IMG/VR virus record: IMGVR_UViG_3300037809_000515
Coordinates: 1 to 26,070 of that record
Source of the DNA: a virus
Strand: one strand, 5' to 3'
Length of the DNA stretch: 26,070 nucleotides
Under the pieces are notes generated by a model. It made no database searches, was not told where the DNA came from, and was given only the letters and a program-made list of their open reading frames with translations. Positions 1,180-21,244 of this stretch are shown piece by piece. Both the position numbers and the translations under genes were made by a program. Every line of letters begins with the position of its first letter. Position 1 is the first letter of the stretch.

Positions 1180-1431
1180 ATGATCAAAGAAGAATTCAAG
1201 AAACTTAAAGTTGGCGACCTACTAGAATGGAACAATACAGTCACAACTAATACAAACCCTTTCGGCGTCGTAACACAATCCAATCATAGTTTTCAAAGCG
1301 CAAACACGCAAATCATGAAGTTTCACCAAGTCTTAATCAAATGGAGTAATCACGATGATATTTGCATATATCACGAATTTGATTCTCACACCTTGCAACT
1401 TCTCACACTAATCGCGGAGGCAAAAAAATGA
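1180..1431 (+). CDS. GDLV-family small protein (array copy 1)
   Basis: 83 aa; motif KVGDLL at residues 10-15, strand GVVTQS, then VLIKWSN and the terminal strand LLTLIAEAKK. GGAG at 1166-1169 lies 10 nt before the ATG. The codons for the last residues, AEAKK, read GCGGAGGCAAAAAAA and therefore provide the ribosome site for the next gene, whose ATG overlaps this stop (ATGA). First gene after the GC-rich hairpins. Function unknown. Confidence 0.7.
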   Translation: MIKEEFKKLKVGDLLEWNNTVTTNTNPFGVVTQSNHSFQSANTQIMKFHQVLIKWSNHDDICIYHEFDSHTLQLLTLIAEAKK

Positions 1432-1712
1432 GCGAAAATATATTTGACAGATTTGACATTGGCGATTTGGTAAAGCATACGAATTGGGGCGGCATAAAAG
1501 ACGGTAAGCGTAACGCTCTCATAACCTATGGCGTGGTGTCTGCAATAAGAACACACGAAACACCAATCCTCCCAGAACGAAAAGTAGAAGTTACAATTCA
1601 ATACATTAACGATTATCTGTCAAAGGTACATTACGGCAATCGCAATTCAGATCACTTGACCAAATTAATAATTATCGCAAAAGGCAAAACCAATGCTAAG
1701 AAAAACAGATAA
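1428..1712 (+). CDS. GDLV-family small protein (array copy 2)
   Basis: 94 aa; FDIGDLV at residues 9-15, then YGVVSAI, VEVTIQYIND and LTKLIIIAKGK. The start overlaps the previous stop by 4 nt (ATGA), with GGAGG 8 nt upstream inside the previous gene. The tail AKGKTNAKKNR is very basic. It shares the N-terminal block DRFDIGDLV with the next gene, so copies 2 and 3 look like the closest relatives in the array. Confidence 0.7.
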   Translation: MSENIFDRFDIGDLVKHTNWGGIKDGKRNALITYGVVSAIRTHETPILPERKVEVTIQYINDYLSKVHYGNRNSDHLTKLIIIAKGKTNAKKNR

Positions 1713-1962
1713 TAAATCACTCCTTGACAGATTCGATATTGGTGATCTTGTTAGCAGCGGAATCAGAATTAAACCAATTCACGGGATCGTGATAAAACTT
1801 AAAAAACATAATTATCCAATATCCGGCTTGCACAATACCGGAGTTAAAATCAAGTGGCTCAAACACACCGGGGAAATCCGTGAAATGTGGTATTTGTTGG
1901 ACGAAAAAAATTGGTGGATCAAAAAAATTGTGATTTTAGCCAAAGCCCGTCGAAATTCGTAA
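1693..1962 (+). CDS. GDLV-family small protein (array copy 3)
   Basis: 89 aa; DRFDIGDLV at residues 12-20, HGIVIKL, VKIKWLKHTG, IVILAKARR. The start lies 20 nt inside the previous gene, after AAAGG in 'gcaaaaggcaaaacca'. It is the last gene of the first coupled group: a 98-nt gap with a promoter follows. Confidence 0.7.
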   Translation: MLRKTDNKSLLDRFDIGDLVSSGIRIKPIHGIVIKLKKHNYPISGLHNTGVKIKWLKHTGEIREMWYLLDEKNWWIKKIVILAKARRNS

Positions 1963-2013
1963 GGGTATCCACAGAAAAGATCAATAAATCGACATAATGT
2001 AGGGTTTACCTGC

Positions 2014-2043
2014 TTGACCGACATAATAAATTAATGCTATATT
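2014..2043 (+). promoter_or_regulatory. sigma70-like promoter
   Basis: TTGACC (2014-2019), an 18-nt spacer, and TATATT (2038-2043), in the 98-nt gap before the gene at 2061. It would start transcription near 2050, just before that gene's ribosome site, and feed the rest of the small-gene array. Confidence 0.55.
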
Positions 2044-2060
2044 ATAGGTGAAGGTAAGGG

Positions 2061-2222
2061 ATGAAAGAAAAAATAAAAGCAATTCTAATCGCGGTCTTGA
2101 CGGTCTTGACAATCGGGTCGGCAATCGCGTTAGTCGATAACCCCAAACCAAACAACCTCAGTGCGAGCATTACTCGCGAGATTAACTTAACAAAGTGGCT
2201 GAATAAGCCAAGGAAAAAATAA
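2061..2222 (+). CDS. small single-pass membrane or exported peptide, 53 aa
   Basis: ATG at 2061, preceded by AAGGTAAGGG, and stop TAA at 2220-2222. A basic N-terminus (MKEKIK) is followed by a hydrophobic helix (AILIAVLTVLTIGSAIALV) and a polar, basic C-terminus, which fits a single membrane anchor or an uncleaved signal peptide. It is the first gene after the promoter at 2014-2043 and unrelated to the GDLV proteins around it. No family recognised. Confidence 0.6.
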   Translation: MKEKIKAILIAVLTVLTIGSAIALVDNPKPNNLSASITREINLTKWLNKPRKK

Positions 2223-2223
2223 C

Positions 2224-2451
2224 ATGCTAAACGAAAAAAAACAAAACGAAATTCGAGTTCTCGCAAAATACTTGCGTTTAGAGATCAGCAGCCTAGAAGA
2301 TCTGGATTTCGTCGTCAAAGAATTATTCAAGGGTAGGGCTGAAGTTTTGCCGGACAATCAAGGTCAATTAAACATTTATACCGGGCATACTTTTGGTATG
2401 CATACAGGCGATATTACTTGCTTGGAAACCAAAGAATTTTTGGACTCTTAA
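2224..2451 (+). CDS. hypothetical protein, 75 aa
   Basis: Starts 1 nt after the previous stop. The ribosome site AAGGA (2210-2214) follows a small hairpin (GGCT-gaata-AGCC, 2197-2209). N-terminal half is charged and helical (NEIRVLAKYLRLEISSLEDLDFVVKELF), and the C-terminal half contains HTFGMHTGDITCLETKEFL. It lacks the GDLV motif and I do not recognise it. Confidence 0.6.
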   Translation: MLNEKKQNEIRVLAKYLRLEISSLEDLDFVVKELFKGRAEVLPDNQGQLNIYTGHTFGMHTGDITCLETKEFLDS

Positions 2452-2493
2452 TCTTAACCCTTTAACCGGCTGGACAAGCCAAGGAATTAAACA

Positions 2494-2712
2494 ATGTTTG
2501 GAATTCTAGAAAAAATGGACAAGTTCTCAAGTGAGACAATGACAAGCGAGGAAAAAATCTCGTTTATGCAAGAGATCATTAATAATGGAATGGTTTGGGA
2601 TATGCACCAAAAGTATATCGCTCAAGCTTCTCAATATTTGAGTGATGGTCAATGCCATTATGCCTTTATGGAAAACATGGTCAATCCTGTTAAAAGCGAG
2701 ACTGTAAAATAA
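2494..2712 (+). CDS. hypothetical small phage protein, 72 aa
   Basis: A helical protein: SEEKISFMQEIINNGMVWDM, then HQKYIAQASQYLSDGQC. The pattern 'FxQxxIxxGxVWxxxxxYxxxAxxLxxxG' is like small uncharacterised phage proteins in which a short helical hairpin is conserved; that similarity is from memory. The ribosome site AAGGA at 2481-2485 follows a GGCT-N5-AGCC hairpin (2468-2480), the same arrangement as at the gene before. Stop overlaps the next ATG by one base (TAATG). Confidence 0.6.
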   Translation: MFGILEKMDKFSSETMTSEEKISFMQEIINNGMVWDMHQKYIAQASQYLSDGQCHYAFMENMVNPVKSETVK

Positions 2713-2981
2713 TGTCTCAATTTTCAACAAAAAACAAAAGTTGCGTTTGGTTCTTCCTTGGACACGATCTAAGTGCGGACGATCCAAAACTTTTAGAATT
2801 GTTGAAAAAATACAAAGTCAAAGCCGACTTCCGCGTCTATCGTGGTCGCTCGGCTGTCTTTGTCAATAGCCCTTATCGAATTGGTTCAATTCGAAAACGA
2901 TTATGGGGAGATCCTTGGGCAATCCATTCCGATTGGCTGGCAGAAGACACGCGATACCGTGAGGAAAAAAATAATGATTAA
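2712..2981 (+). CDS. hypothetical protein, 89 aa
   Basis: Coupled to the previous gene through TAATG. Contains a mixed alpha/beta pattern (SCVWFFLGHDLSAD, LLKKYKVKADFRVYRGRSAVFV) and many aromatic residues near its end (LWGDPWAIHSDWL). No GDLV motif and no recognised family. The next gene begins 8 nt before its stop. Confidence 0.55.
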   Translation: MSQFSTKNKSCVWFFLGHDLSADDPKLLELLKKYKVKADFRVYRGRSAVFVNSPYRIGSIRKRLWGDPWAIHSDWLAEDTRYREEKNND

Positions 2982-3228
2982 ATCAAATGTTAAAGATGGA
3001 AGTTTTGTAAAGCATACAATTGGCGAAACGCTTGAGGCGGGATGGCTGGTTCAAATTAAGCGTCCTGGTGAGTTTACTACAAGTGAACTTGGTTTTGGTG
3101 ATGGTCCTTATCTGGGAATTGTGCTTAAGCGCGATGATAATGGTGCGTCCAAATATTGGCGGATACTTTTGCCAAATGGAAAAAAGCCAATCGTGAAACC
3201 TGATGAAGTTGAGTTGATCGCGGGGTAA
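2974..3228 (+). CDS. GDLV-like small protein, divergent copy
   Basis: 84 aa from the ATG at 2974, chosen over an earlier in-frame ATG at 2842 because GAGG lies about 10 nt upstream and the 8-nt overlap with the previous stop (ATGATTAA) is the junction type used repeatedly in this array. The N-terminal motif has diverged to EAGWLVQIKR, but the later strands LGIVLKRD, YWRILLPNGK and PDEVELIAG match the family layout. Confidence 0.65.
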   Translation: MIKSNVKDGSFVKHTIGETLEAGWLVQIKRPGEFTTSELGFGDGPYLGIVLKRDDNGASKYWRILLPNGKKPIVKPDEVELIAG

Positions 3229-3458
3229 TGCGAATGTCTGTGGAAGAAAAAAATAAACCAACAATGTACAAACCTGGTGACTTGGTTAGAAATAGAACTT
3301 TAAATGTTGCGGGCGACGACTGGGAGCATCACATGTGCATTGTCGTGAAAGCAAGAAAGGCTGTTATAACTGGCGAAATAATTTATTCTGTACGATTTCC
3401 TAATGGAAACATTGGTGGTACGTGGGCTTGTGATATGGAGTTGATAGCAAGTGCATGA
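3228..3458 (+). CDS. GDLV-family small protein
   Basis: 76 aa; motif KPGDLVRN at residues 15-22, strand CIVVKARK, then YSVRFPNG and MELIASA. The start overlaps the previous stop (TAATG); an in-frame ATG two codons later (3234) is an alternative. The last codons GTGCATGA overlap the next gene's start. Confidence 0.65.
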   Translation: MRMSVEEKNKPTMYKPGDLVRNRTLNVAGDDWEHHMCIVVKARKAVITGEIIYSVRFPNGNIGGTWACDMELIASA

Positions 3459-3699
3459 TTGGGACGCTGAAAGAATCCGCACTTATAAATGTGGGACGCA
3501 TCCAAAAAAAGGAGATCTTGTTGTTCGACAGATCCTCAAACAAGGATCATTCACCAAAGAATATCGTTATGGAATTGTTACGGGGAAACTTAAATTACCA
3601 ACGGGTTTGGTAATGCCCGTAATTTTGTGGTGTGGTCACGGTAAGCCAAAACGATGTATATCGAAGAATGTGGAATTGGTGGTGAGAAATGAAAAATAA
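3451..3699 (+). CDS. GDLV-family small protein
   Basis: 82 aa; KKGDLVVRQ near residues 19-27, YGIVTGK, VILWCGHGK, VELVVRN. GTG start in an 8-nt overlap with the previous stop (GTGCATGA). Contains two Cys residues (C14 and one in LWCGHG), unusual for the family. Confidence 0.65.
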   Translation: MHDWDAERIRTYKCGTHPKKGDLVVRQILKQGSFTKEYRYGIVTGKLKLPTGLVMPVILWCGHGKPKRCISKNVELVVRNEK

Positions 3700-3922
3700 A
3701 AATTATAGATTCCAACGAGGCGATTTAGTCAAAAATAAAAAGTCTATTACTTGGCGCAATCAAGATGCGCTTGGCATTATTATAGAAGACGTGGGAATGT
3801 TTAGTGGTCGGCAACTTGTTCGAATAAAGTGGATTAAGTCAAACTCGCCCGAATTAACTAAAAACTTGCGGAAGCATTATTATGCCAAGAGTCTTGAATT
3901 AGTTGCGAGTGTGTCCAAGTGA
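3689..3922 (+). CDS. GDLV-family small protein
   Basis: 77 aa; RGDLVKNKK near residues 10-18, LGIIIED, LVRIKWIK, LELVASVSK. ATG start 11 nt inside the previous gene, preceded by GGTGAG. Strongly basic in its first half. Confidence 0.65.
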   Translation: MKNKNYRFQRGDLVKNKKSITWRNQDALGIIIEDVGMFSGRQLVRIKWIKSNSPELTKNLRKHYYAKSLELVASVSK

Positions 3923-4137
3923 AAAAATTTCCGTCAAGCTTTATTATCGGTGAATTGGTTGAGGTTATCGATTCTCTGGATGGTCCTATTGAGGGTCGGG
4001 ATATACTTGCGGGAACTTTGGGGATTGTTGTTGAACAAGTTGGTATGTCAAAAGATTATTATGTGGTTCACTTGCCTTGTGGAGAAAATCAAATTATGTC
4101 CTATAAATGGATAAGGAAGGTGTCTCGTGAATCCTGA
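3919..4137 (+). CDS. GDLV-family small protein (GELV variant)
   Basis: 72 aa with a GTG start in a 4-nt overlap (GTGA) with the previous stop. Motif FIIGELVEVID, strand LGIVVEQVG, then YYVVHLPCG. The GDLV motif is changed to GELV. It has a longer loop after the motif (DGPIEGRDILAG). Confidence 0.6.
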   Translation: MKKFPSSFIIGELVEVIDSLDGPIEGRDILAGTLGIVVEQVGMSKDYYVVHLPCGENQIMSYKWIRKVSRES

Positions 4138-4366
4138 AGAATTTTGTATTGGTGATCTTGTGGAAGATATTCAAGCTCCTGGTTCACAAGGTGTTTTCAC
4201 TGGATGGGGCTATAATGGCTTTGAGCAAGTCTGTGGAGGCGTTGAGACTAAGATCGCAATCGTTACGTGGCTCAAGCATGAAGAATGTGAGGGGCATCCT
4301 GGCTCAAGCTGGCGCATCTGGACGAATGAATTAAATTTGCTTGCGAAAGGAAAATCAAATGCATGA
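4127..4366 (+). CDS. GDLV-family small protein
   Basis: 79 aa, GTG start 11 nt inside the previous gene, after AAGGAAGG. FCIGDLVEDI at residues 6-15, then IAIVTWLKHEE and LNLLAKGKSNA. The tail codons contain AAAGGA, the likely ribosome site of the next gene. A 61-codon ATG frame overlapping it (4149) is a shadow. Confidence 0.65.
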   Translation: MNPEEFCIGDLVEDIQAPGSQGVFTGWGYNGFEQVCGGVETKIAIVTWLKHEECEGHPGSSWRIWTNELNLLAKGKSNA

Positions 4367-4559
4367 TTGGTTAGGTATTAAAGTTTTTGATGTGGGCGAC
4401 ATGGTTAAAGTAAAAACGCGCACTAATGGAGAGGATGATTATGGCGTTGTCACAAGCACTTCTCAAACTGGTGGTCAATGGTCCTACTTTCTTCGTTGCT
4501 TGGACGGAGTCGATTCGTGGTATCTGGGTTGGGAATTGGAGGAATTTGTAAATGTTTAA
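4359..4559 (+). CDS. GDLV-family small protein (GDMV variant)
   Basis: 66 aa from ATG 4359. An upstream in-frame TTG exists at 4341, but AAAGGA sits 8 nt before the ATG and the 8-nt overlap ATGCATGA is the array's standard junction. FDVGDMVKVK, YGVVTST, YFLRCLDG, LEEFVNV. Aromatic-rich in the middle (WSYF, WYLGW). Confidence 0.65.
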   Translation: MHDWLGIKVFDVGDMVKVKTRTNGEDDYGVVTSTSQTGGQWSYFLRCLDGVDSWYLGWELEEFVNV

Positions 4560-4740
4560 ATCTGGCGATTTAGTAAAGATACTTAATGTTTATATGGAAA
4601 GCGATTTAGGCATTATTATTAGACAAGGCAAGAATCCCTGTGAAGGCGAACAAATGGCTATTACCACGGCAGAATGGCTTGTGCATTTACCGGACGGCCG
4701 AAGGGTTTGGCTTTGGGCGAATGAGATAAGAAATGTTTAA
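4552..4740 (+). CDS. GDLV-family small protein (minimal copy)
   Basis: 62 aa, one of the shortest members. GDLV begins at residue 5 (MFKSGDLVKI), then LGIIIRQGK, WLVHLPDGR and VWLWANEIRNV. 8-nt overlap ATGTTTAA with the previous stop, and the same ATGTTTAA at its own end. GGAGG (4538-4542) lies upstream of the start. It probably shows the minimal domain: motif, three strands and a closing strand. Confidence 0.65.
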   Translation: MFKSGDLVKILNVYMESDLGIIIRQGKNPCEGEQMAITTAEWLVHLPDGRRVWLWANEIRNV

Positions 4741-4963
4741 TATTGGCGATTTAGTTTCTCAAAAAAGAGCAGAGATTTCGTTCGGGCTTGGGATTGTGGT
4801 GGGAATATCTGATCGCACTGCTGGACCGGATAACCCGAAGGTGTTTGCGTATCAAGTTCATTTTGCTAAAGGCAAAAAACACGGCTATAACGATTCAATT
4901 TCCAAACGATGGTTTTTGGAACAAGACATACAATTAGTTAGTGAGGCAAAAACAAATGTATAA
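4733..4963 (+). CDS. GDLV-family small protein
   Basis: 76 aa; MFNIGDLVSQ, LGIVVGISD, AYQVHFAKGK, IQLVSEAKTNV. 8-nt overlaps at both ends (ATGTTTAA and ATGTATAA). GTGAGG in its last codons serves the next start. Confidence 0.65.
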   Translation: MFNIGDLVSQKRAEISFGLGIVVGISDRTAGPDNPKVFAYQVHFAKGKKHGYNDSISKRWFLEQDIQLVSEAKTNV

Positions 4964-5183
4964 ATTTAAGATTGGAGATCTTGTTAAAGGTAATGTTAAA
5001 GTTGAGTCGTTTGGAGTTGCGTCTTTTAGTGGATATGGCATTGTTATGAAAACTCTTAGTGGAGGTTCCCACCGAAAAAATCAAAGTGTTTTTGTTTATT
5101 GGCAAGATCATCCTATAGGTATTTGGGTGGTCGCACCAAAATTAATAATAGTTGCGGAGGCAAAAAATGATAAAACAACTTAA
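4956..5183 (+). CDS. GDLV-family small protein
   Basis: 75 aa from ATG 4956 (an upstream in-frame GTG at 4941 is itself part of the GTGAGG ribosome site, so I reject it). FKIGDLVKGN, YGIVMKTL, VFVYWQDHP, LIIVAEAKND. Its AEAKN codons read GCGGAGGCAAAAAAT and place GGAGG about 7 nt before the next ATG. Confidence 0.65.
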   Translation: MYKFKIGDLVKGNVKVESFGVASFSGYGIVMKTLSGGSHRKNQSVFVYWQDHPIGIWVVAPKLIIVAEAKNDKTT

Positions 5184-5370
5184 TGTTGGCGATTTGGTTG
5201 AGGGCGGTTTTGGTCTATTACATCACGATTATGGTTTGGGAATCATAATTCAAAAAAAACGCTTTGCACCCCAAGTATATGCTTATCAAATTCATTGGTC
5301 CAATCATAATACGACATGGGAACCAGTAAAACAATTAACCTTGGTGGCAAAAAATGAGTTACAACAATGA
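5167..5370 (+). CDS. GDLV-family small protein
   Basis: 67 aa from ATG 5167 (CGGAGG at 5155-5160), 17 nt inside the previous gene. LNVGDLVEGG, LGIIIQKKR, YQIHWSN, LTLVAKNELQQ. The region matching the tail of copy 1 (GCGGAGGCAAAAAA) lies just upstream, an almost identical junction 3.7 kb away. Confidence 0.65.
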   Translation: MIKQLNVGDLVEGGFGLLHHDYGLGIIIQKKRFAPQVYAYQIHWSNHNTTWEPVKQLTLVAKNELQQ

Positions 5371-5584
5371 TGTTTATAAATTAGAAATTGGTGATCTTGT
5401 GGAGCGCATTACATGGGATTCATTCGCTAAAAAACTCGGTGTCGTGGTAGCAATTGGTGAAGACGTACCAAGCCCCGGTGCTGGTGGTCATATGATAAAA
5501 GTGTGTTGGGCGGATAATTATGGAACCTTCTGGGCTCAACCTAGTAAACTTAAATTAATAGCAAAGGCAAAGAAAAATGTTTAA
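5354..5584 (+). CDS. GDLV-family small protein
   Basis: 76 aa; LEIGDLVERI at residues 10-19, LGVVVAIGED, IKVCWADN, LKLIAKAKKNV. Starts 17 nt inside the previous gene after GGTGGC. It ends with ATGTTTAA, the 8-nt junction to the next gene. Confidence 0.65.
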   Translation: MSYNNDVYKLEIGDLVERITWDSFAKKLGVVVAIGEDVPSPGAGGHMIKVCWADNYGTFWAQPSKLKLIAKAKKNV

Positions 5585-5786
5585 GAAAAACGAAATAGCA
5601 AAATTGCGTATGGGCTTGCATAATCGCCCCTGCCGTGTTAGAATTGTGGATGTGGTTGGTGACGATGCGATGGTTGAACAAAATAATGGAACCATTTCTA
5701 TTGTGGATGTTAATGAATTGCTTCCTATCCTTGAAGGCAACGAGAAAAATTTGCGACGACGAAGGAAAAGTGAAAGACGTGCATAA
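5577..5786 (+). CDS. small SH3-like protein lacking GDLV
   Basis: 69 aa. It lacks GDLV but keeps a short-strand pattern (CRVRIVDVVGDDAMVEQ, NGTISIVDVNELLPIL) that looks like a KOW/SH3-type barrel, followed by an extremely basic tail (RRRRKSERRA). Coupled on both sides by 8-nt overlaps (ATGTTTAA, GTGCATAA). Possibly a nucleic-acid-binding member; inferred from charge only. Confidence 0.6.
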   Translation: MFKKNEIAKLRMGLHNRPCRVRIVDVVGDDAMVEQNNGTISIVDVNELLPILEGNEKNLRRRRKSERRA

Positions 5787-5952
5787 AGAATTTAAAGTTG
5801 GAAATCTGGTGCGAATAAAAACTCAGAATGAATACTTTAAAATGCGAAGGGGTATTGTCTTCGGATTTACAGATCAAGGTGCTTTAAAGGTTCGGTGGTC
5901 CAACGGCACGTCCGATATTCATAGTGGGATTGGATTAATAAAGGTGGCGTGA
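5779..5952 (+). CDS. GDLV-family small protein (GNLV variant)
   Basis: 57 aa from GTG 5779, chosen because the 8-nt overlap GTGCATAA matches the other junctions; GTG 5770 is an alternative. No ATG start fits, since the in-frame ATG at 5635 lies inside the previous gene. FKVGNLVRIK, RGIVFGFTD, LKVRWSNG, GLIKVA. Motif changed to GNLV. Confidence 0.6.
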   Translation: MHKEFKVGNLVRIKTQNEYFKMRRGIVFGFTDQGALKVRWSNGTSDIHSGIGLIKVA

Positions 5953-6170
5953 TGGACGCAACAGATTTTAATATTGGAGATTTGGTGACGGTAAGAACGA
6001 CACGCGAATTGGGCGTCATCGTGAAGCTTGGCAGAGAGTATCCCGACAACGGTAGATATCGTTCGCAGTTCGCAGATATTAAATGGCACGATATGGAAAA
6101 GCCTTGTCGGATTTATAAGTGTTATGGAAACTGGGATTGTGTAAAGGTGGTGGTTCGTGCGAAAACATAG
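5952..6170 (+). CDS. GDLV-family small protein
   Basis: 72 aa; FNIGDLVTVR, LGVIVKLGR, ADIKWHDM, VKVVVRAKT. ATG 5952 preceded by AAGGTGG; a GTG directly before it (5949) would overlap the previous stop as GTGA. Ends with TAG. A 50-codon basic gene starts 14 nt before its stop. Confidence 0.65.
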   Translation: MDATDFNIGDLVTVRTTRELGVIVKLGREYPDNGRYRSQFADIKWHDMEKPCRIYKCYGNWDCVKVVVRAKT

Positions 6171-6309
6171 AAGAAAAATATGGGACAGCGGTCAGGACGC
6201 AAATGCTTTTTATAAACGGAAAGCGGGTGCTCACGATCATAAATTAACGAAGCGCAACAAGACGCGACAAAAGATTAGAAAGATTAAAAAAATCTTGGAG
6301 GAATACTGA
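6157..6309 (+). CDS. very basic 50-aa protein
   Basis: GTG start at 6157 with AAGGTGG about 8-13 nt upstream; stop TGA 6307-6309 overlaps the next ATG (TGATG). This fills an otherwise empty 138-nt gap exactly. About 40% of residues are Lys, Arg or His (RKHRRKIWDSG, KLTKRNKTRQKIRKIKK), suggesting RNA or DNA binding or a ribosome-associated peptide. GGAGG in its last codons is the ribosome site of the next gene. Unrelated to the GDLV family. The coupling at both ends makes it likely real despite its length. Confidence 0.6.
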   Translation: MRKHRRKIWDSGQDANAFYKRKAGAHDHKLTKRNKTRQKIRKIKKILEEY

Positions 6310-6518
6310 TGTTTTTTGAAAAGGGTGATCTTGTATGTGAAACCAAACACCCTAATAGACGAGGGTATATTTGCGAAGTCTTAACGGGTAAAAACAGTGA
6401 TCGTGACTATCTTGAAGTACGGTGGCTAAACTTTCCGTGGGGCAATCCACATACGCGGACGATTGAGGTTCCAAAACATATGACTATACTCTCGAAAGGA
6501 AATAAAAATGAGAAATAA
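6309..6518 (+). CDS. GDLV-family small protein
   Basis: 69 aa; FEKGDLVCET at residues 3-12, GYICEVL, LEVRWLN, MTILSKGNKNEK. The second strand lacks the usual GIV (GYI instead). Start coupled by TGATG. AAAGGA in its tail codons precedes the next ATG. Confidence 0.65.
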   Translation: MFFEKGDLVCETKHPNRRGYICEVLTGKNSDRDYLEVRWLNFPWGNPHTRTIEVPKHMTILSKGNKNEK

Positions 6519-6705
6519 ATTTGAAATCGGCGATCTGGTTAGCCACACACTCCGACCCTATACCGGAGTTATTGTCGAAATAATATACCAAGAACACTTA
6601 TCGTACAAGAGAGCACCGATGTATAAAGTTGCTTGGGAGTATGGCGAGTGGATGTATGAAGTGGAAGAACAATTAAAAATAGAAGCCAGGGCGAAGTGTG
6701 CATGA
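6508..6705 (+). CDS. GDLV-family small protein
   Basis: 65 aa; FEIGDLVSHT, TGVIVEII, YKVAWEYGEW, LKIEARAKCA. Starts 11 nt inside the previous gene with AAAGGA 9 nt upstream; its stop overlaps the next ATG (ATGA). Confidence 0.65.
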   Translation: MRNKFEIGDLVSHTLRPYTGVIVEIIYQEHLSYKRAPMYKVAWEYGEWMYEVEEQLKIEARAKCA

Positions 6706-6917
6706 TGGAATTTGATAAAGGCGATTTGATAAAATCTAATCTAAGCAGTACCGTCTTTGATGAAAAAGATTGGTACGGAATTATTCTTGATGTTTGTAAA
6801 GATGCTCCTCACAAACATCCTGTTCTCGCGAACAAGTATAAGATAAGATGGTGCGGTGGTGCAACCTCGTGGCTGTTTGGGCACTCCATTGATTTAGTTT
6901 CTCGGGGCAAGAAGTAG
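6702..6917 (+). CDS. GDLV-family small protein (GDLI variant)
   Basis: 71 aa from ATG 6702 (4-nt overlap ATGA); an in-frame GTG at 6696 and a second ATG at 6705 are alternatives. FDKGDLIKSN, YGIILDVCK, YKIRWCGG, IDLVSRGKK. Ends in TAG, followed by an 8-nt gap: the tight coupling of the array loosens from here. Confidence 0.65.
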   Translation: MMEFDKGDLIKSNLSSTVFDEKDWYGIILDVCKDAPHKHPVLANKYKIRWCGGATSWLFGHSIDLVSRGKK

Positions 6918-6925
6918 TTATATGT

Positions 6926-7126
6926 ATGAAGCGACTTTCAAAGTTTGCCATTGGAGATCTTGTTCGAAGACGTTCTATCTTAGCAACAAAAAACCAAGGA
7001 TATGGGATCATTATAGGGCTAGATCTAAATAAGGCTGAGTGCCTGTGGAGTGATGAAGAAACAAAGTGGCTCAAGATATCCCAAATTTATTTAATTGCTC
7101 GGGGGCAAAATGGAGACATGTCATAG
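6926..7126 (+). CDS. GDLV-family small protein
   Basis: 66 aa; FAIGDLVRRR at residues 7-16, YGIIIGLD, AECLWSDEE, IYLIARGQNG. No clear Shine-Dalgarno (only AAGAAG). The stop is a TAG that lies in the same frame as the next gene, so read-through would fuse the two proteins. Confidence 0.65.
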   Translation: MKRLSKFAIGDLVRRRSILATKNQGYGIIIGLDLNKAECLWSDEETKWLKISQIYLIARGQNGDMS

Positions 7127-7150
7127 CTATGCTGCCGCCTATTTACTGAT

Positions 7151-7363
7151 GTGGGCGAGCACACAGAATTCAACATTGGAGATCTAGTAACTTACCGTGA
7201 AGATTTGCTTGGAGTTAAGGGGCACACAGGAGTTGTTATTAATGTTTTTACTGATGGCGATGATATATGTTATATGATGGTAAGGTGGCATGACGGCGAA
7301 GTTTATCCCGAACTTGGGAAACATATTGTTTTGTTAGCAAGAGCAAAAAATGATAAACGATAA
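7151..7363 (+). CDS. GDLV-family small protein, weak start
   Basis: 70 aa from GTG 7151; FNIGDLVTYR, TGVVINVF, MMVRWHDG, IVLLARAKNDKR. There is no ribosome site before this GTG and no ATG in frame after the upstream TAG at 7124-7126. The segment between (reading LCCRLFTD) is not family-like. It may be translated by re-initiation, by leaky TAG read-through from the previous gene, or poorly. Confidence 0.6.
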   Translation: MGEHTEFNIGDLVTYREDLLGVKGHTGVVINVFTDGDDICYMMVRWHDGEVYPELGKHIVLLARAKNDKR

Positions 7364-7586
7364 AGCAAATATGGGTGATTTAGTAATGTTTCGAAAACCG
7401 AATGTTCGGTGGACCGACAAGGAAGATCCATATATCTACGGAATGATTAAAAAAATAATTCCCCCCGGTAGTGGATGGAACAACGGCCGTCGATTAAAAT
7501 ATAATGTTCTTTCCTCCGCAGGAAGACTTTATCATGAAGTAAATCACGAAAAAATTATTATTTTATCTAAAGTAAAAAAAGCTTGA
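7350..7586 (+). CDS. GDLV-family small protein (last of array)
   Basis: 78 aa; NMGDLVMFR at residues 7-15, YGMIKKII, LKYNVLSSAG, IIILSKVKKA. Starts 14 nt inside the previous gene, whose tail GCAAGAGCAAAAA precedes the ATG. The array ends here: a promoter for a different gene follows immediately. Confidence 0.65.
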   Translation: MINDKANMGDLVMFRKPNVRWTDKEDPYIYGMIKKIIPPGSGWNNGRRLKYNVLSSAGRLYHEVNHEKIIILSKVKKA

Positions 7587-7962: not shown

Positions 7963-8388
7963 ATGAGCAATCTAAAAGATATTGATGGTCTTTATGAAAA
8001 GTATCCCAAATTATTGCTCAAGAATTGTATTGACTGTAACGTGGGGTGGTACAGGATTATTGATCACATGTGCTCTGCAATCCAGACATATGTTGACGGA
8101 GAAATTGCAGAACATGATATATATCCTAAATTTTTGCGTATACAAGAAAAGTTTGGGGTATTAAATATAGAAGTTGATGATGGAGATGAAATAACAGAAC
8201 TAGTTTCGCGAAGCTGCGAAATATTAAGTTATCACACTTGTGAATATTGTGGGGAACATGGGGAACTTTATTGTTCTTCCAAGTGGAGAAGCTGGTGTCA
8301 CTATAAAACGCTATGTCTAGATCACGCAATTGAGTTTTATTATTATCGCTTATATCGCGATTCTGAATTTAAAAAGGATAATGAATGA
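7963..8388 (+). CDS. small zinc-binding-like phage protein, 141 aa
   Basis: The C-terminal third holds a likely zinc site (CEYCGEHGELYC, then WCHYKTLCLDHA: C-x2-C ... C-x2-H), and the middle has the phage-typical 'IQEKFGVLNIEV' strand. Similar proteins, with a 'GWxxIIDxxCxxIQ' N-terminus and a C-terminal Cys/His cluster, occur as uncharacterised genes in large phages; this is from memory. No Shine-Dalgarno precedes the ATG, consistent with a leaderless mRNA. The stop overlaps the aceB start by 4 nt (ATGA), so it is the first gene of the glyoxylate operon, whether or not it has a related function. Confidence 0.65.
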   Translation: MSNLKDIDGLYEKYPKLLLKNCIDCNVGWYRIIDHMCSAIQTYVDGEIAEHDIYPKFLRIQEKFGVLNIEVDDGDEITELVSRSCEILSYHTCEYCGEHGELYCSSKWRSWCHYKTLCLDHAIEFYYYRLYRDSEFKKDNE

Positions 8389-9884
8389 CAACAAATATTT
8401 TGCCTCTAAAGGCAAAGCTGTTTCTGGATACACTCCAAGGTATCTTCGAACCAAAAATTATACAACTATTATCAGAACGAAACAATAGAAAAGGCTTGCT
8501 ACCAAAACAAATCTTAACCGCAGCATCAAATGATGACCCTAATTGGAAAGTGCTTCCCCCTCCTAAAGATATTTTAGATCGACGAGTAGAAATCACAGGA
8601 CCACCAGTTAGAAAAATGATCATCAATGCCCTAAACTCAGGGGCAAATGTTTTCATGGCTGACTTTGAGGATTCCAATTCTCCTACTTGGGAAAACTGTA
8701 CAGATGGACAACAAAATCTTTATGATGCGGTAAGAAAAAAAATAGATTTTGTTGATCCCCAAACACAAAAGGAATATAAACTAAATAAAAAAGTTGCGAC
8801 TCTGTTTGTTCGTCCTCGTGGATTACACTTGGTAGAAAAAAATTATAATAATATCCCGGCAAGTCTCTTTGATTTTGGATTATACTTTTTTCATAATCAC
8901 AAACAACTTCTAAAAAACGGAACTCGACCATATTTTTATTTACCTAAAATAGAACACTATAGAGAAGCTAGGTTGTGGAATGAAATATTTTCTTTTGCAG
9001 AAAGCTCTTTTGATCTTCCTGTAGGGACAATAAGAGCCACAGTGCTTATAGAGACACTGCCCGCTGCCTTTCAGATGGACAAGATTCTATATGAACTCCG
9101 GGCTCACTCTGTAGGACTAAATTGTGGACGATGGGATTATATATTTAGTTTCATCAAGTCTTTATCTCTTTCCAGGGATGCAGTGCTTCCAGATCGCGAT
9201 GAAGTAGGAATGACTCAGCACTTTATGCGATCTTATACACAACTACTAATACAAACTTGTCATAAGCGCGGCGCTCACGCAATCGGGGGAATGGCTGCAC
9301 AGATTCCAATCAAAAATGATCCCGAAGCAAATCATGTGGCTATGAACAAAGTTCGCGCCGATAAACTTCGAGAGGTTCAAGATGGTCACGACGGAACTTG
9401 GGTGGCGCATCCTGTTTTAGTGGATGTGGCTAAAGAAATTTTTGATGAACACCTAAAAGCACCAAACCAAATTGATAAACAAATTTGTTTAAATTATTCT
9501 ATTGAGTCGGCTGATCTCTTATGCACTCCAAAGGGTCAATGCACCGAGGCTGCCTTAAGAAAAAATATAGGTATTGCCTTTCAGTATATAAATTCTTGGA
9601 TAAATGGTAATGGATGTGTACCAATTGATAATCTTATGGAAGATGCTGCCACCGCAGAAATCTCTAGAGCCCAAATTTGGCAGTGGCGAAAACACAAAAT
9701 ATATTTATCTAATGGAAAACAAGTTACGAACAAATATCTTGGATTGGTGATAAACTCTGAAATAAAAAAATTTGAACACTACAAAAAGTTTGAAGAAACA
9801 AGTATAATTCTAAATAAGTTATGCTTTAGTGAGGAAATAATTGACTTTCTGACTTTAGAGTGTTACGATAATTTATGTGAATAA
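8385..9884 (+). CDS. aceB: malate synthase A
   Basis: 499 aa; condenses glyoxylate and acetyl-CoA to malate, the second step of the glyoxylate bypass. Visible family signatures: [15 protein letters not shown] (89-102), [13 protein letters not shown] (141-153) with the substrate-binding Arg, [19 protein letters not shown] (221-239), [13 protein letters not shown] (243-255), and [17 protein letters not shown] (418-434) with the catalytic Asp near 420. The protein is full length, slightly shorter than the ~530-residue bacterial enzymes, and no key motif is damaged, so it should be active. It is translationally coupled to the gene before (ATGA) and followed 20 nt later by aceA. A phage-carried auxiliary metabolic gene; codon use is AT-rich like its neighbours, so not a very recent acquisition. 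Confidence 0.95.
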
Positions 9885-9904
9885 TTAAGGGGAAATATTT
9901 ATCA

Positions 9905-11134
9905 ATGATAAACAGATGGAATGGAATTAAGAAATCTTATAATAAACAGGATGTGCTTGATCTTAGAGGAAGCAAGAAAATTGAATACACTCTTGCTAAA
10001 GATGGAGCCGAAAAGTTATGGGACTTACTAAATAAAAAAGATGCTGTTCGAGCCCTAGGAGCCCTTACAGGAAACCAAGCGGTACAACAGGTCAAAGCTG
10101 GATTGAAAGCAATTTATCTTAGTGGCTGGCAAGTTGCGGCTGACGCAAACCTTGCTGGTGACATGTATCCTGATCAAAGTCTTTATCCAGCGAACAGTGT
10201 TCCACAAGTTGTTAAAAAAATTAATAAAGCATTTCAGAGAGCCGACCAAATCGAAAGTGTTGAAGGAAATAATCAAATTGATTATTATGCGCCAATCGTT
10301 GCGGACGCTGAAGCTGGCTTTGGTGGACCGCTGAACGCTTATGAGTTGATGAAGGGAATGATTGAGGCTGGTGCTGCGGGCGTACACTTCGAAGATCAGT
10401 TGGCTTCTGAAAAAAAATGCGGGCATATGGGCGGAAAAGTTCTTGTTCCAACAAGCCAATTTATTCGTACCCTGACTGCGGCAAGATTGGCGGCTGATGT
10501 GTGCGACACTCCAACTGTATTGATTGCTCGCACTGATGCCAATAGCGCGAAGCTTATTACCTCTGATGTGGACGAGCGAGATCATAAATTTATGACTGGC
10601 GAAAGAACACCGGAGGGATTTTATAAAATCACAGGTGGTTTAGAAATGGGGATCGCTCGTGGTTTAGCTTATGCTCCTTATGCAGACTTGCTATGGCTTG
10701 AGACTTCAACACCATGTCTTGAGGAGGCAAAGAAATTTGCTGATGCGATTCATTCGAAATTTCCAGATAAATTATTAGCTTATAACTGTTCCCCATCTTT
10801 TAACTGGGAAAAGCATTTGGACAAATATACGATTGCTATGTTTCAAAACTCTTTAGAGAAAATGGGATACAAATTCCAGTTTGTAACTTTAGCTGGATTC
10901 CATTCATTAAATTATAGTATGTTTTCTTTGGCTAGGGATTATAAAGATTTAGGAATGACTGCTTATTCTGAATTGCAACAAAAAGAATTTGATCAAGTTC
11001 ATAATGGATTTACTGCTGTAAAGCATCAAAGAGAAGTTGGCACAGGCTATTTTGACAGGGTTTCCGAGGTTATTAGCGGGGGCGAGTCTTCAACCCTAGC
11101 ATTAATAAATTCTACTGAAGAAGAACAGTTCTAA
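9905..11134 (+). CDS. aceA: isocitrate lyase
   Basis: 409 aa; cleaves isocitrate to glyoxylate and succinate, the first step of the glyoxylate bypass. Landmarks: [14 protein letters not shown] (71-84), [13 protein letters not shown] (88-100), [10 protein letters not shown] (132-141), catalytic loop [13 protein letters not shown] (170-182, Cys172), NCSPSFNW (294-301), FVTLAGFH (326-333) and the typical C-terminus STEEEQF. Length and motifs resemble the bacterial AceA type; the N-terminus is shorter by about 20 residues, as in many bacteria. AAGGGG lies about 12 nt before the ATG. With aceB it forms a complete glyoxylate shunt. It would let an infected cell bypass the CO2-releasing TCA steps and keep carbon from acetate or fatty acids for biosynthesis (role inferred). 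Confidence 0.96.
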
Positions 11135-19835: not shown

Positions 19836-20114
19836 ATGAAGTTCGAAAAAATTGCTACTGAAATTGGTAAACTTGTTGATGAAAAAGATGCTGCTTATGG
19901 AAGTTCTTTCCTGAAGTCAGAAAAAATTTTAAAGATTCTATATCCAAATGGAATTGAGCCAGAACAATATAAAGATATGCTGGCTATTACTCGCATCATT
20001 GATAAGCTGTTTAGAATTGCAACTAAAAAAGATGCGTTTGGAGAAAATCCATTCAAAGATATAGCGGGTTATGGTATACTGGGTGTAGCTAATGGCGAAT
20101 CTGAAAAGAAATGA
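19836..20114 (+). CDS. DUF1599-like small protein, 92 aa
   Basis: From ATG 19836; the longer in-frame version starting at 19725 would lie inside the previous gene. The pattern LVDEKDAAYGSSFLKS, MLAITRIIDKLFRIATKK, NPFKDIAGYGILG matches DUF1599 / all-alpha nucleotide-modification-associated proteins ('KNxxYG ... RxxDKxxRI ... DxxGYxxL'), which are common next to phage nucleotide metabolism genes. No Shine-Dalgarno; a possible TTGACT-N17-TATCCT promoter ends 7 nt before the ATG. Overlaps the next gene by 23 nt. Confidence 0.65.
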   Translation: MKFEKIATEIGKLVDEKDAAYGSSFLKSEKILKILYPNGIEPEQYKDMLAITRIIDKLFRIATKKDAFGENPFKDIAGYGILGVANGESEKK

Positions 20115-20469
20115 CGGACGGAATAAAGATTATTCTATCTCTAATAGATTAAGGAAGCAAGGAAAATCTAGTGAGGAGTTTGAGATCATCTTTAACGCCC
20201 TTTCCCTTGAAGAAGTTATTGGTCTAAAATTGGAATTGACTGCGAAGTCATCTTTTAATAAAAAATTATATGGATTGCCACTTTGGTATTCTATCCCAAA
20301 CATTGTAAAAGACGCGGTATTGAAATATGCCCTATCCGCAACACGTTCGAAGCGAGAGGCTGCACGGTTTCTTGGTCTGAACGAATTAGGTATGAAGAAA
20401 ACTATAAATAGGTATAAGATTGATGATTATTTTGAACAAACACTTGACAAAGGGGTCAAGGACAGTTAG
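20092..20469 (+). CDS. HTH-containing phage protein, 125 aa
   Basis: Middle: SLEEVIGLKLELTAKSSFNKKLYGLPLWYSIPNIVKDAVLKYAL. The C-terminal third, SATRSKREAARFLGLNELGMKKTINRYKI, has the Fis-type HTH form (AAxxLGxxxxxxxxxxxRY), so a DNA-binding or transcriptional role is likely. Similar proteins occur in marine T4-like phages (from memory). Its last codons contain the promoter of the downstream ncRNA, whose -10 covers the stop codon, and a TATAAATA box (20403-20410) of T4 late-promoter type lies inside it. Confidence 0.65.
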   Translation: MANLKRNDGRNKDYSISNRLRKQGKSSEEFEIIFNALSLEEVIGLKLELTAKSSFNKKLYGLPLWYSIPNIVKDAVLKYALSATRSKREAARFLGLNELGMKKTINRYKIDDYFEQTLDKGVKDS

Positions 20470-20629: not shown

Positions 20630-20702
20630 GCGAATGTAGCTCAACTGGCAGAGTGTCAGCCTTCCAAGCTGAAAGTTGCGGGTTCGAACCCCGCCATTCG
20701 CT
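20630..20702 (+). tRNA. tRNA-Gly (anticodon TCC)
   Basis: 73 nt, complete cloverleaf: acceptor GCGAATG/CATTCGC, D-arm GCTC...GAGT, anticodon arm TCAGC-CTTCCAA-GCTGA with anticodon TCC (reads GGA), T-arm GCGGG-TTCGAAC-CCCGC, discriminator T. No encoded CCA. It begins right after the T-run of the ncRNA, so it is either read through that terminator or made from another start. GGA glycine codons are frequent in this AT-rich phage. Confidence 0.95.
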
Positions 20703-20731
20703 TTTCATTACAAAAAAAAAATTTAATCTGC

Positions 20732-20737
20732 TATAAT
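20732..20737 (+). promoter_or_regulatory. -10 box upstream of the tmRNA
   Basis: Perfect TATAAT, 12 nt before the first G of the tmRNA acceptor strand. The -35 region (about 20708-20713, TTACAA) is weak. Suggests the tmRNA can be transcribed on its own. Confidence 0.5.
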
Positions 20738-20835
20738 ACTTATTACTACGGGGGTGAACTGGATTCGACAGAGTGTCGAGATAGATTTGTGCAAGGGTGT
20801 ATAAGCAAACACTAAAAGGCTTAAAATAAATAACT

Positions 20836-20871
20836 GCTAACGATAATGTTGCATTAACTTTGGCTGCGTAA
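20836..20871 (+). other. tmRNA proteolysis-tag reading frame
   Basis: GCT resume codon then ten codons and TAA: ANDNVALTLAA. The AND start and the ALxAA-like hydrophobic end match bacterial SsrA degradation tags recognised by ClpXP-type proteases. The stop lies in the GTAA loop of helix 5, as in other tmRNAs. The resume codon is preceded by AATAACT, close to the usual alignment sequence. Confidence 0.9.
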
Positions 20872-20952
20872 GCAATCAAAGCGGGGTTTACGGCTTCCTT
20901 GTTACCCAAAACCGTGTTTTAACACACACACACACAAAGGAGGACATTTATT

Positions 20953-21162
20953 ATGTCAGAAAATAAAAATAAAAATGGTTATGAAATTCGAGAAGGATTG
21001 CTTGGGATGGCGCAAGGTATTCTAGGTGATAAATGCAATCGCGACTTTGAGAATGAAATGATCAAACCCGATGGAGCGCGAAATGCTGTTCCTTCTTATA
21101 CAACTGAAGAAATAATTGCTGAAGCTGAAAAGCTTTACGCATTTGTTCAGAAGAAAGATTAA
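20953..21162 (+). CDS. small phage protein encoded inside the tmRNA gene
   Basis: 69 aa with one of the best ribosome sites in the window (AAAGGAGGA, 20936-20944, 8 nt before ATG), preceded by a (CA)n stretch (20922-20935). Sequence: hydrophilic start (MSENKNKNGYEIREGLLGMA), then DFENEMIKPDGARNAVPSY and TTEEIIAEAEKLYAFVQKKD. Small proteins with 'GYEIRxxLLxMA ... YTTEEVIAEAEKLYxFV' order occur in T4-like phages in my recollection, without known function. The stop TAA (21160-21162) lies 7 nt before the 3' helix-2 strand of the tmRNA. Translation and tmRNA folding may therefore compete unless the RNA is processed. Confidence 0.75.
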   Translation: MSENKNKNGYEIREGLLGMAQGILGDKCNRDFENEMIKPDGARNAVPSYTTEEIIAEAEKLYAFVQKKD

Positions 21163-21244
21163 GATATAACCTTGTATATCGCAAATTTATTTAAGCATTG
21201 TGGACTGCGGTTCGATACCGCACACCTCCAATTCCATTTTTCTA

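Follow-up and report, generated by a model that had tools for sequence, protein, structure and literature searches.

Can a tmRNA gene hold a complete protein gene between its two halves, with the halves still belonging to one RNA? The question is raised by a virus record of 26,070 bases (IMG/VR IMGVR_UViG_3300037809_000515; the whole of this stretch is called the window below), in which the initial annotation described a tmRNA interrupted by a 69-codon gene. A 2025 survey of 97,179 unique tmRNA sequences from bacterial genomes and RefSeq viruses distinguishes three gene forms: standard, interrupted by a group I intron in the T-loop, and permuted (PMC11915505). In the literature searched, consisting mostly of papers available without subscription, no report of a protein gene nested in a tmRNA was found. 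Judged by its sequence, the arrangement would be a fourth gene form.

A tmRNA gene with a protein gene in its PK2-helix 2 connector

A covariance search of the window with the Rfam tmRNA model RF00023 returned a full-length match on the + strand at 20750-21233, covering model positions 1-374 (88.9 bits, E 1.5e-33; gathering score 47). It spans the 5' and 3' parts end to end and does not reject the 3' part, and the extra ~250 bases are placed by the alignment as an insertion in the region leading from PK2 to helix 2. No uninterrupted second 3' half and no other tmRNA was detected by the Rfam scan of the window. ARAGORN missed the tmRNA, its sole call being a tRNA-Gly at 20630-20702, and the permuted tmRNA model produced only a weak shadow (50.5 bits) over this tRNA-Gly and the 5' part. 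The RNA is laid out as follows.

20750-21230, + strand: tmRNA gene with nested protein gene, 481 nt (RF00023); architecture common to 19 further contigs
20750-20756, + strand: acceptor stem (H1) 5' strand GGGGGTG, including G3 of the G3-U pair; paired in 15/15 sequences
20770-20796, + strand: helix 2 (H2) 5' strand; pairs with 21170-21201 in every nested allele
20797-20823, + strand: PK1 (GTGT/ACAC, TAAGC/GCTTA); intact in 15/15 aligned alleles
20836-20871, + strand: tag frame ANDNVALTLAA with stop; same tag or variants in relatives
20858-20881, + strand: helix 5 (H5) around the tag stop codon; from sequence and Rfam alignment
20883-20916, + strand: PK2, the last pseudoknot, without PK3/PK4; from sequence and a compensatory change in L006
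21170-21201, + strand: helix 2 3' strand (CCTTG, CGCAAATTTAT, GCATTGT); covariation across the insert
21206-21222, + strand: T-arm TGCGG-TTCGATA-CCGCA; 3 pairs changed on both sides among alleles
21223-21230, + strand: acceptor stem 3' strand CACCTCC and discriminator A, CCA not encoded; from sequence

The 5' half (20750-20916) thus runs from GGGGGTG through a D-region (GGATTCGAC), the helix 2 5' strand, PK1, the resume codon, the tag and helix 5 to PK2, and is followed by a short spacer, a (CA)n run, AGGAGG and the 69-codon ORF, after which come the 3' strand of helix 2, the T-arm and CACCTCC-A. The tRNA-like domain is represented by the G3-U pair, a D-loop remnant and the T-arm. Assignment to RF00023 is backed by the score over the full model, this domain, covariation in helix 2, and the presence of PK1, tag and H5. 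All parts named in the initial annotation (acceptor strands, helix 2, PK1, tag, H5, PK2) were found, and its first reading, which puts a protein gene into the PK2-helix 2 interval of a tmRNA, is supported by the comparative data below.

Each known gene form resembles the window in part. Standard one-piece tmRNAs (RF00023; about 340 nt in the distant relatives L035, L037 and L048) have the tRNA-like domain, H2, PK1, tag, H5 and PK2 in the same order, whereas the window lacks PK3/PK4 and carries a protein gene in the PK2-H2 connector. In permuted two-piece tmRNAs (RF04321; alpha- and beta-proteobacteria, cyanobacteria, and marine phages such as Melnitz) the halves are joined only by H1 and H2, as here, and these RNAs also share with the window the site of discontinuity, reduced pseudoknots and an occurrence in marine phages (PMC3985003, PMC9004378). 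In the window, however, the order is normal and the spacer is an internal protein gene, not an excised acceptor-end spacer. The 5' half precedes the 3' half in the window and in the relatives read, and a circularly permuted form, which had already been discounted in the initial annotation, is rejected by this gene order.

Known group I introns of tmRNA genes sit in the T-loop, splice, and sometimes carry a homing endonuclease gene (PMC11915505). As in the window, extra DNA interrupts the gene and can encode a protein; the insert described here differs in lying between PK2 and H2 and in encoding a 69-aa two-helix protein. No Rfam intron match occurs in the insert or elsewhere in the window, and the T-loop is continuous. 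Searches of the ORF against Pfam and PHROG detected no homing endonuclease domain (LAGLIDADG, GIY-YIG or HNH), and its two-helix model has no PDB match. A group I intron or homing endonuclease was rejected on the lack of any Rfam, Pfam or PHROG match, in agreement with the annotation's argument from position.

Coevolution of the two halves across the gene

Fifteen alleles were joined at the gap and aligned with MAFFT. In the named helices 98.0% of cells are paired, and 8 pairs, located in H1, H2 and the T-arm, show double changes; the alleles are close relatives, so that this covariation rests on few independent events. The observed pairing values were reached in 0/500 shuffles, and slid-partner controls were 38-52% paired. 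MAFFT misplaces the gap of L006 in the helix 2 3' strand, which makes the 15-allele count too low for the pairs of this contig. When the nested alleles only were paired explicitly, helix 2b was complete in window-type alleles (11/11) and also in L006, where 11/11 pairs form through different bases (U-A for A-U, A-U for U-A); alleles with the other 3'-half type form 9-10/10 pairs around a single bulged A, and helix 2c has 6-7/7 pairs in all nested alleles. Further compensatory changes in L006 affect H1 (U-A to C-G) and PK2 (ACGG/CCGT to CTCGG/CCGGG). The G3-U acceptor pair, the alanine identity element, is invariant in the 15 alleles, and the tag varies little (ANNDVALPLAA in L006, ANDNVALSLAA in L069 and L058). 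Predicted full-length folds that include the insert retain H1 (0.92-1.0) and H2a, the inner helix 2 (0.79-0.97). By their substitution pattern, the two halves evolve as one RNA across the gene, as the initial annotation had proposed for the acceptor strands and helix 2.

The motif CCTTG occurs twice in all alleles examined, in the PK2 loop (20898-20902) and where the helix 2 3' strand begins (21170-21174), so that CAAGG has two possible partners.

The nested gene, its leader and its protein

The gene and the ribosome site preceding it were confirmed at the positions below.

20922-20943, + strand: (CA)n leader followed by an AGGAGG ribosome-binding site; similar leader in free-standing relatives
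20953-21162, + strand: nested protein gene, type A, 69 codons; 57 loci with relatives, dN/dS, predicted helices

Nested alleles that align without gaps give pairwise dN/dS values of 0-0.23, with an excess of silent changes over neutrality (binomial P 7e-4 to 3e-8, the share of non-silent sites being approximated at 0.79), and nested genes differ in length by multiples of three. These coding patterns place the nested gene under purifying selection. The predicted protein consists of two helices, residues 5-36 and 51-67 (pLDDT 87). It has no match in Pfam, PHROG or the PDB (PDB cut-off E<=0.001), structure comparison yielded only weak matches to uncharacterised phage proteins, and in an annotated phage collection neither the ORF nor, by blastn, the 5' tmRNA half was matched.

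A CA-rich run lies directly 5' of the ribosome site in nearly all of the 39 free-standing relatives listed. In a scan of 14 contigs of 49-252 kb, the pattern (CA)4...GGAG...ATG occurred at one place each in nine, always at a gene of the nested family, and it was absent from the backwards control. The CA-repeat leader thus stays with one gene family across very diverged phages (L008 and nearly all free-standing relatives). ACA motifs 5' of a ribosome site enhance translation and occur in ligands of S1 (PMC3879156), whose contacts on tmRNA are mainly at PK2 (PMC3968760); since it adjoins PK2, the (CA)n run could help to load ribosomes. Most alleles have a 5-bp hairpin (GACAT/ATGTC) at the start codon, and in the alleles read the stop lies 7 nt from CCTTG, the beginning of the helix 2 3' strand. 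This spacing and the hairpin suggest that translation of the gene and folding of the tmRNA may interfere with each other.

Recurrence of the nested gene and its empty sites

Searches of IMG/VR retrieved 57 loci with the ORF as query, 23 with the 5' half and 11 with the type B ORF. The same split was found in 19 contigs besides the window, coming from many separate metagenomes: a gene of the same family lies at the identical point, between PK2 and the helix 2 3' strand, and belongs to one of two divergent types, type A (MSENKNKNGYEIREGLL...) in 8 of them and type B (MSENNNTSGYEIRQGLLQQAQRIVEQNAHM...) in 11. A strict pattern recognises 14 complete nested alleles, L090 is a further one, and the alleles of L084 and L085 are partial, ending at the contig end. 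The nested gene is single-copy in each nested contig.

An assembly artefact, a pseudogene or a chance ORF would account for the lack of matches to the ORF and the 5' tmRNA half in the annotated phage collection, and is hardly credible given that 20 contigs (window included) come from many separate metagenomes and comprise at least 14 distinct alleles, with double compensatory changes, a dN/dS far below 1 and length differences in threes. We rejected it on the independent contigs, the covariation and the selection.

A compact, uninterrupted tmRNA occurs in 8 contigs (L058, L061, L066, L067, L069, L071, L081, L082), in which PK2 is followed by a linker of 12-19 nt (alleles measured) and then by helix 2, with no PK3/PK4; six of these contigs were searched for a copy of the gene elsewhere, and none was found. 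Nested and compact contigs can be compared through an upstream gene.

20092-20469, + strand: HTH-like gene, synteny anchor; weak PHROG HTH match

The nested and compact relatives that were tested have a homologue of this gene in front of the tmRNA (scores 368-628), the exceptions being L006, which has none, and L009, with a weak match at the end of the contig stretch. Because the same HTH-like gene stands upstream, the nested and compact loci are filled and empty versions of one locus. Continuous tmRNAs, which the initial annotation had named as evidence against its reading if present in related phages, do exist, most of them at the orthologous locus, where they serve as empty-site controls and not as a refutation. 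The annotation had also described PK3/PK4 as replaced by the gene; their absence stands and the description is correct as to position, but displacement by the gene is rejected, since compact relatives without the ORF equally lack them.

Free-standing members of the family occur in T4-like phages and share the protein family and the type of leader with the nested gene. Unlike the nested copies, they lie beside a tmRNA (about 110 nt past it in L048, about 100 nt past a tmRNA-like 3' end in L095), after the gp23 capsid gene (L050 and L052, with a gap of about 160 nt in L052) or after a tRNA gene, never inside a tmRNA. The last position is that of gp335 of Synechococcus phage B23, a 35%-identical homologue with a (CA)n leader just after a tRNA-Pro gene. 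The presence of T4-like gp23 in two compact relatives, L066 and L069, assigns the group to the T4-like phages. For prokaryotic genomes, the matches listed include two contigs that encode the family, one from a MAG of Peribacter and one from a MAG of Halobacteriovorax.

As a separate observation, the gp23 match in the L048 contig (G020, 33764-35455) contains TAG and TAA inside, possibly an intron-like interruption.

Exchange of the gap content

The nested genes read share a leader, an MSE/MSK start and a QKKD-stop ending, and the body between is of either type A or type B. Free-standing copies nearly all end at KK, whereas nested ones have an extra Asp (KKD); from this comparison of endings, the Asp-stop belongs to the nested state. 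On a tree of 5' halves, gap content (none, A or B) needs at least 8 changes, and nested L006 groups with compact L081/L082 with full support. Both 3'-half types are found with and without genes. The changes on the tree and the mixing of 3'-half types indicate that gap content has repeatedly been gained, lost or exchanged by recombination, in a process that presumably started from a single insertion. The initial annotation had named two marks of a genuine split gene, and both are present: the halves are conserved and show compensatory changes, and the gene between them varies or is replaced by another.

Promoters and the fate of the transcript

We consider it probable that, as a whole, these observations are explained by one transcript acting as messenger and pre-tmRNA, in which the gene would be looped out, in a marine phage group that uses the PK2-helix 2 connector as a socket for a small gene cassette. 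Transcription would start just upstream of the tmRNA.

20729-20737, + strand: extended -10 promoter TGCTATAAT of the tmRNA; motif kept in most relatives

In most nested and compact relatives the tmRNA 5' end is preceded, at a distance of 12-13 nt, by TGnTATAAT or a close variant, while the DNA further upstream differs among them; the motif was not found in L058/L071. In L001 (1922-1969; also L002, L060 and L076) an inverted repeat with TTGACA-18 nt-TATAAT stands between PK2 and the (CA)n leader, resembling the promoter/stem-loop cassettes of T4-type phages. Through this extra sigma-70-like promoter the ORF can be transcribed alone in L001/L002, which would suit a pair of independent genes that merely overlap, the ORF being expressed from its own promoter and the tmRNA transcript being irrelevant to it. 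That account seems improbable: the exact promoter pattern was found only in the L001/L002 allele, the others have few bases between PK2 and the leader, and any full tmRNA transcript necessarily contains the ORF anyway.

In the shared-transcript explanation, which we prefer, a single transcript from the extended -10 promoter would yield the small protein (ORF of 63-69 codons) through the ribosome site, and H1 and helix 2 would join the halves, leaving the ORF looped out from the free end of helix 2, at the point where two-piece tmRNAs in nature have their break. Tagging does not require PK2-PK4, and a two-piece tmRNA comprises a coding piece with PK1-PK2 and an acceptor piece (PMC3985003, PMC3968760); the ORF therefore sits where a gap is tolerated. 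Translation would come first, after which the loop would be nicked or trimmed to give a two-piece tmRNA. The RNA ends would be matured as in tmRNA, charged with alanine and used with SmpB of the host; no SmpB is encoded in the 15 related contigs searched, so that activity would depend on the host protein.

The transcript might instead stay in one piece, as a true dual-function tmRNA with a translated messenger of about 250 nt looped out. This is a possible but rather unlikely outcome. The insert has no Rfam intron match, H1 and H2 are predicted to be stable in its presence, and single-stranded RNA can replace PK2-4 with tagging retained in E. coli (Nameki 2000, as described in PMC3985003). Yet a ribosome terminating on the ORF would reach into helix 2, an unprotected loop of about 250 nt would be an easy target for RNases, and natural tmRNAs gapped at the PK2-helix 2 site are cut ones (PMC3985003). 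Because of that ribosome and the long exposed loop, we infer that the RNA is somewhat more likely to be nicked after translation than to stay intact permanently.

A sublineage raises a different possibility. L059, L085 and L090, all nested with type B, are the only contigs with a non-canonical T-loop (AGTCGGTG instead of TTCGATT), although their T-stem is still paired (GAGGG/CCCTC or GCGGG/CCCGC); the tRNA-like function of this sublineage may be altered or lost. Ribosome rescue could on this basis have been given up more generally, the tRNA-like ends and helix 2 then serving as a stabilising frame, or as a decoy for SmpB or host tmRNA, around a small messenger. A phage RNA of the DS6A type, limited to the tRNA-like domain, inhibits host tmRNA (PMC4131195, PMC11915505), and the finding of SmpB in 0/15 contigs would fit. 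The nested alleles, however, keep the tag frame with its LAA end, H5 and PK1, for which a frame or a decoy would have no need, and the acceptor G-U pair is invariant, which leaves loss of rescue an unlikely reading of the group as a whole.

Significance

On balance we lean towards the view that one phage RNA is at once a tmRNA and the messenger of a separate conserved protein, with the connector as an exchangeable cassette socket. tmRNA is among the best surveyed bacterial RNAs, and a conserved protein gene inside it would be new as a gene form and, if true, one of few cases in which an independent ordinary gene resides in a structured non-coding RNA. It would mark the PK2-H2 connector as little constrained, offer a plausible non-permuted path to split tmRNAs, and provide a natural system for testing whether ribosomes can translate through a tmRNA and leave it undamaged. 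Further cases may wait in viral data, as gene finders can miss the form, which ARAGORN did here.

Other features of the window and its relatives

Recurrent intergenic hairpins (CCGCAGGGAGGCA(C/T)GGG...TGCCTCA) stand at gene ends in L012, L020, L034, L045 and L096. The window itself contains, at 1180-7586, a tandem array of about 20 short ORFs that share the motif (F)xxGDLV...GIV...W and apparently belong to one expanded family; two of them were compared with Pfam, and neither had a match. At 8385-11134, adjacent genes for malate synthase (PF01274, E 9e-105) and isocitrate lyase (PF00463, E 4e-107) represent the glyoxylate shunt in a phage contig.
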